Positions 47,122-47,291 of a DNA stretch of 64,000 nucleotides are shown here, piece by piece. The translations under genes were made by a program, and so were the position numbers. The notes beneath the pieces are model-generated. The model saw nothing but the letters and a program-made list of their open reading frames with translations, was not told the origin of the DNA and made no database searches. The DNA is from Methanosalsum zhilinae DSM 4017 (lineage in GTDB: Archaea > Halobacteriota > Methanosarcinia > Methanosarcinales > Methanosarcinaceae), in the NCBI RefSeq assembly GCF_000217995.1, contig NC_015676.1, positions 412,103 through 476,102 of the forward strand, in the 5' to 3' direction. Each line of letters begins with the position of its first letter. Within the stretch, counting starts at the first letter, position 1.

Positions 47122-47243
47122 CGCCGGGGTTGGGATTCGAACCCAAGCACCCCAGAAGGGGAAACAGGTCTCGAGCCTGCCGCGTATAGACTCCGAAGCA
47201 TTTGTTTGTGTGCCGTTGGATTAGTCCGCTCTGCCACCCCGGC
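47122..47243 (-). tRNA. tRNA-Ser(CGA) with a 34-36 base insertion in the D-arm
   Basis: Acceptor strands GCCGGGG and CCCCGGC with discriminator G, T-arm TTGGG-TTCGAAT-CCCAA, long variable arm TCCCC-TTCT-GGGGT and anticodon stem/loop GCAGG-CTCGAGA-CCTGT (anticodon CGA at 47171-47173) give tRNA-Ser reading UCG. The CCA tail is not encoded. The D-arm is interrupted (47187-47220) by sequence that makes the gene 122 bases instead of about 88. Bases GACT (exon) can pair with AGTC in the insert and leave 3-base bulges (AAT and TAT), resembling a bulge-helix-bulge splice site, so this is most likely an archaeal intron at a non-canonical D-arm position. Confidence 0.88.
47187..47220 (-). other. Putative tRNA-Ser intron (non-canonical position)
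   Basis: A 34-base stretch between D-loop and anticodon stem. With the bulge-helix-bulge pairing GACT/AGTC and cuts inside the 3-base bulges, exon 1 ends CTAA and exon 2 begins TACGCGG. An alternative cut (exon 1 ...CTAAT, exon 2 GCGG...) gives a perfect GCA/TGC D-stem and a 36-base intron. I cannot decide between the two. Confidence 0.5.
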
Positions 47244-47291
47244 ATTGCCGATATGAGAGTTCCTCTGGATTTATATAGTTATCGAAAAGAT

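Follow-up and report, generated by a model that had tools for sequence, protein, structure and literature searches.

On the minus strand of the window, a stretch of 64,000 nucleotides of the Methanosalsum zhilinae DSM 4017 genome (a single contig of 2,138,444 bases), lies a tRNA-Ser(CGA) gene that starts with GCCGGGGUGGCAGAGCGGACUA and ends with ACCCCGGCG. Its acceptor, anticodon (CGA), variable and T arms are all intact, as the original prediction had it, and the coordinates (47122-47243) and anticodon given there are also correct. The proposed interruption of the D-arm by 34-36 extra bases is borne out as 36 extra bases in the D-loop, a length that follows from splice sites fixed by comparison with relatives. 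The insert sits away from 37/38, at 21/22, and ARAGORN, run on the spliced form, recognises the remainder as a complete tRNA. The mature D-stem contains an A12.C23 mismatch that is common to the intron-less orthologs. The locus is laid out as follows:

47122..47243, minus strand: tRNA-Ser(CGA) gene, 122 nt with the intron and 86 nt in the predicted mature form, with G1 at 47243 and G73 at 47122, called as Ser(CGA) by ARAGORN on the in-silico spliced sequence
47222..47243, minus strand: 5′ exon, 22 nt, tRNA positions 1-21, GCCGGGGUGGCAGAGCGGACUA, its end set by a join identical to the intron-less orthologs
47186..47221, minus strand: predicted D-loop intron, 36 nt, at position 21/22, AUCCAACGGCACACAAACAAAUGCUUCGGAGUCUAU
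47122..47185, minus strand: 3′ exon, 64 nt, tRNA positions 22-73, containing the anticodon CGA
47270..47277, minus strand: TATA-box-like sequence TATATAAA, 27-34 bases upstream of G1, of putative function, called from sequence

A TATA-like element at -50..-24 is likewise present in 70 of 101 distinct upstream regions of relatives.

The D-loop intron explains how such a tRNA gene can escape annotation, this one being overlooked both by ARAGORN and by the Rfam tRNA model at threshold. ARAGORN found no tRNA in the window, and Rfam gave no match there at its thresholds; runs on the unspliced gene at gathering and permissive settings were not useful. The Rfam tRNA model, with a gathering score of 29, assigns 15.4 bits to the unspliced gene, compared with 46-48 bits for the intron-less orthologs. 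Presented with the unspliced gene, ARAGORN reports a false tRNA-Asn, and once the 36-base insert is taken out it reports tRNA-Ser(CGA) with all arms.

Covariance-model and pattern searches of the genome recovered this one Ser(CGA) gene and no second, which disposes of the reservation, raised with the original prediction, that another copy might exist. UCG, the codon at which the tRNA would be used, makes up 49 of the 1176 serine codons in 44 long open reading frames of the window. The locus could also be read as a pseudogene or an assembly error, with UCG decoded by tRNA-Ser(UGA): a Ser(UGA) gene (L051) is present and might read UCG by wobble, and the Ser(CGA) gene may be missing in some genera (g9, g10). 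Yet 75 distinct intron-bearing versions from several families all retain a complete set of arms and the CGA anticodon, whereas a decaying gene would differ. This intact tRNA body rules out the pseudogene that the original prediction had allowed for, and leaves decay or misassembly an exceedingly improbable account of the gene.

Bulge-helix-bulge motif and predicted splice sites

The exon-intron junctions carry a bulge-helix-bulge (BHB) motif, in which two three-nucleotide bulges (UAA and AUA) flank a four-base-pair helix (GGAC:GUCY) across 75 distinct introns. Its elements in the window are:

47224..47227, minus strand: 5′ strand of the central BHB helix, exon GGAC (G18 G19 A20 C20a), invariant in 75/75 and paired with GUCY in 75/75
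47188..47191, minus strand: 3′ strand of the central BHB helix, intron GUCU, which varies as GUCU/GUCC/GUUY over the 75 introns with pairing always kept
47221..47223, minus strand: 5′ bulge UA^A, predicted cut between 47222 and 47221, exon-side A21 invariant in 75/75 and intron-side base A, U or G
47185..47187, minus strand: 3′ bulge AU^A, predicted cut between 47186 and 47185, exon-side A22 invariant in 75/75 and intron-side bases variable
47218..47220, minus strand: 5′ strand of the inner helix, UCC, with compensatory changes (UA/CG, CG/UA, CG/GC) with its partner
47192..47194, minus strand: 3′ strand of the inner helix, GGA, with compensatory changes with the UCC strand

Taking the central helix together with the inner helix (UCC:GGA), pairing holds in 524 of 525 cells over the 75 introns. 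The controls, in which shuffling ignores the relatedness of the sequences, reach at most 517 when partners are shuffled among sequences (1000 trials) and at most 304 when the partner is slid along. Since the shuffles are uncorrected for relatedness, the strength of the case lies in the agreement of pairing, boundary conservation and intron-less orthologs. Within the inner helix, U-A is replaced by C-G, and C-G by both U-A and G-C.

The invariance of A21 and A22, set against the variability of the intron-side bulge bases, indicates cuts at UA^A and AU^A. In BHB motifs the cut falls between the second and third bulge base, and both sites obey this rule. Cutting there joins GGACUA to ACGC and yields the D-loop GGACUAACGC, identical to the intron-less orthologs of families f3 and f5. 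The original prediction had placed a BHB site here, and its proposal of a non-canonical BHB intron is supported by the comparative data; the helix it gave, GACT/AGTC, is one base off, the pairing being GGAC:GUCU instead. In the earlier register the same intron would have a central helix GACU:AGUC, bulges AAU and UAU, and cuts AA^U and UA^U. The window sequence permits this arrangement at a similar folding energy, but its fourth pair (U:A) fails in 19 of the 75 introns, no better than in shuffles, and its cuts would leave GGACUAAUACGC, two bases more than in all intron-less orthologs, so that we regard it as very unlikely.

Very probably, then, this tRNA-Ser(CGA) gene is functional and carries a non-canonical BHB intron of the archaeal kind at 21/22 that would be spliced by an α′2-type EndA, as judged from sequence comparison. 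After transcription, one helix would form between exon GGAC and intron GUCU and another, within the intron, between UCC and GGA, placing two three-nucleotide bulges around a four-base-pair helix in a strict 3-4-3 bulge-helix-bulge. The homodimeric α′2 EndA would cut each bulge between its second and third base (UA^A and AU^A), and the tRNA ligase, which in archaea is RtcB, would join the exons into an 86-nt tRNA with the D-loop GGACUAACGC.

Thermodynamic folding was excluded from the evidence, because the energy of the enforced BHB is unfavourable and the fold of the whole gene is undiagnostic (z -0.66). The outer helix is weak, consisting only of GC:GC with C23 unpaired opposite C16, and the motif is therefore not a perfect hBHBh′. 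On the isolated fold, RNAfold prefers an open central helix with an outer GCG:CGC, and the enforced BHB is less favourable by about 1 kcal/mol or more. In free-energy models a four-base helix between bulges is marginal, and we take the unfavourable folding energy of the BHB as uninformative rather than as counter-evidence.

Distribution among archaeal relatives

Relatives were gathered by DNA search, by a covariance model of the 3′ exon (R1) and by patterns; many unrelated bacteria also turned up as chance matches to the genome-wide pattern, and only archaeal tRNA matches were kept. Matches to the anticodon-to-T-arm pattern in G011 (L111) and a second one in G007 (L123) are likewise due to chance and are not tRNA genes.

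The D-loop intron is found in most genera of the Methanosarcinaceae (f1), comprising Methanosalsum (including a same-genus genome, G002), Methanohalophilus, Methanolobus, Methanococcoides, Methanomethylovorans, Methanohalobium and ANME-3 type genomes, and it also occurs in the ANME-2 cluster (f2) and in Ca. Argoarchaeum (f4). Across all the relatives that carry it the site is the same, the length ranges over 16-47 nt and the tRNA body is kept, with little intron sequence conserved beyond the BHB. In genus g17 of Ca. Argoarchaeum (L018, L024) the intron is only 17 nt long (AUCCAACGGGAGUCUUA) and barely exceeds the BHB. Outside the class, a D-loop intron is present in two families, f8 and f33. 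In the f8 genes (L317, L326) the D-loop intron measures 16-17 nt, and the variable arm holds another insert, roughly 30 nt long, which is possibly a second non-canonical intron.

The original prediction had proposed looking in relatives for the intron-less gene, and the exact joined sequence exists: the sister families f3 and f5 carry the same gene without the insert (GGCAGAGCGGACTAACGCGGCAGG), and its D-loop reads GGACTAACGCGG, the predicted join. In genus g23 of f5 the intron-less gene is more diverged, and its anticodon loop is UUCGAAA. In Methanosarcina-type genera (g2, g7, g11; L105-L110, L170-L173), the Ser(CGA) gene is a different, unrelated and intron-less one (GCCCAGGTAGTCTAGCGGTAGGGCGACGGTCTCGAAAACC), which suggests that the intron-bearing gene was replaced there.

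These comparisons bear on whether the insert might be kept in the mature molecule, either as an expanded D-arm of the tRNA or as part of a non-translational tRNA-like RNA. According to RNAfold the insert can form its own hairpin and leave the other arms undisturbed. However, a retained insert sits poorly with lengths of 16-47 nt and little conservation beyond a BHB that nonetheless covaries, with the existence of intron-less orthologs, and with a genome that has no other Ser(CGA) gene; retention is accordingly a very unlikely reading, and removal of the insert by splicing is strongly preferred.

In Methanotrichaceae (f7, Methanothrix-type), the D-loop intron is accompanied by a second insert in the T-loop. 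This second non-canonical intron, at 59/60, is 30-44 nt long (L283-L288, L290, L292, L293, L297-L302) and follows the scheme GGG-UUCA-AA^N ... UGAA/GGAA-AA^U-CCC; its 12 distinct variants mostly pair as expected, and the mature loop would be UUCAAAU. In f6, f18 and f29 (L289, L291, L316, L322), the Ser(CGA) gene has an insert at the anticodon loop, the canonical position, and no D-loop intron. The intron site thus differs within the same tRNA among related lineages, these three families being set against the D-loop carriers.

Splicing endonuclease and known intron systems

The genome has one EndA gene, encoding a protein of 351 aa with two PF01974 domains, of the α′2 type. The protein scores above the NCBIfam cut-off for NF006795, and its nearest PDB relatives are the α′2 enzyme of Archaeoglobus fulgidus (1r0v/2gjw). 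It contains the motifs FRxY, PHSEY and VRKR, which presumably supply the catalytic Y, H and K. The Crenarchaea-specific loop is absent from this EndA, which reads FYG-KPLDED-RLQLS where a loop is inserted in the A. fulgidus variant 3p1y, by its insert taken to be an engineered protein carrying that loop. A heterotetrameric (αβ)2 EndA with the Crenarchaea-specific loop was not encountered in the genome, the single gene being of the α′2 type. Among 31 genomes tested, EndA was found in 30, and both PF01974 domains lie in one reading frame in 29; in G285 the contig is cut.

Enzymes of the α2 and α′2 types cut canonical BHB motifs (PMC4033280; PMC6379350; PMC12397907). The strict 3-4-3 geometry of the D-loop intron is compatible with this specificity, and the intron is unusual only in its tRNA position. 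Canonical BHB introns at 37/38 have the same motif and presumably the same enzyme; here, by contrast, the intron lies in the D-loop, so that excision must come before the D-arm can adopt its mature fold.

The closest parallels are the D-arm introns of Crenarchaeota/Thermoproteales (for example at 20/21, 22/23 and 25/26; PMC4090602), which are likewise small and have the central BHB helix formed on exon bases. The present introns differ from them in belonging to Euryarchaeota with an α′2 endonuclease, in lying at 21/22 of one tRNA species, and in keeping a strict 3-4-3 geometry, whereas relaxed forms are common in the crenarchaeal group. Reviews link non-canonical tRNA introns to Crenarchaeota and a broad-specificity endonuclease, and treat the tRNA introns of Euryarchaeota as canonical. 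In the passages of PMC3218864 drawn on here, such introns are almost exclusively crenarchaeal and three thermophilic euryarchaeal methanogens are mentioned; apart from ARMAN, multi-intron euryarchaeal tRNAs are listed for Methanopyrus kandleri and Methanothermobacter thermautotrophicus alone (PMC4033280). The multi-intron or non-canonical tRNA genes of these two species are also unusual introns of euryarchaeal methanogens, but the euryarchaeal cases in the relevant passages of PMC4033280 and PMC3218864 are from thermophiles only, in contrast to the many mesophilic and halophilic Methanosarcinaceae, ANME-2 and Argoarchaeum genomes considered here. The rarity in Euryarchaeota asserted by the original prediction therefore agrees with the reviews (PMC4090602; PMC3218864; PMC4033280) but does not extend to the clade surveyed, in which a non-canonical intron is common in one gene.

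The element is thus of a known kind, while a conserved euryarchaeal set is not described in the parts of the reviews used here. A count of 673 non-canonical introns over 217 archaeal genomes comes from tRNAscan-SE 2.0, whose model drew part of its training from Euryarchaeota (PMC8450103), and the supplementary table of that report might list some of those described here. What is notable is the conservation in Euryarchaeota with an α′2 enzyme, together with the two-intron genes of Methanotrichaceae. A conserved set alongside α′2 enzymes suggests that the motif, rather than the tRNA position, decides cutting by the narrow enzyme. The group offers a tractable euryarchaeal system with dozens of natural variants for testing motif against position, including introns of 16-17 nt and intron-less sister genes.

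A tentative history can be put forward, in which the D-loop intron arose before the split of Methanotrichaceae, the ANME-2/Argoarchaeum lineages and Methanosarcinaceae, and was kept in a single-copy gene by endonucleases of the α′2 rather than the crenarchaeal type. Under this scheme precise removal would have occurred in at least two families (f3 and f5), and gene replacement would have eliminated the intron in Methanosarcina, with the second intron at 59/60 added in Methanotrichaceae. The deep branches of the EndA tree are poorly resolved, and the tree does not separate one origin with losses from several gains. Were the early origin correct, narrow-specificity α′2 enzymes would routinely process D-loop and T-loop introns given a strict 3-4-3 motif.

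The remaining tRNA genes of the genome were assessed with RF00005, a T-arm pattern and ARAGORN on genome pieces. By these three means only tRNA-Gly(CCC) was not found in the whole genome; its gene may be missing, or an intron may mask it. An ARAGORN call of tRNA-Sec(UCA) with an intron (L070, G000:C1:493151-493254) was rejected, the locus matching a tRNA-Arg(UCG) that carries a canonical intron instead. Canonical anticodon-loop introns occur elsewhere in the genome in the genes for Ala(GGC), Met, Tyr, Trp (119 nt), Pro(CGG) and Arg(UCG).
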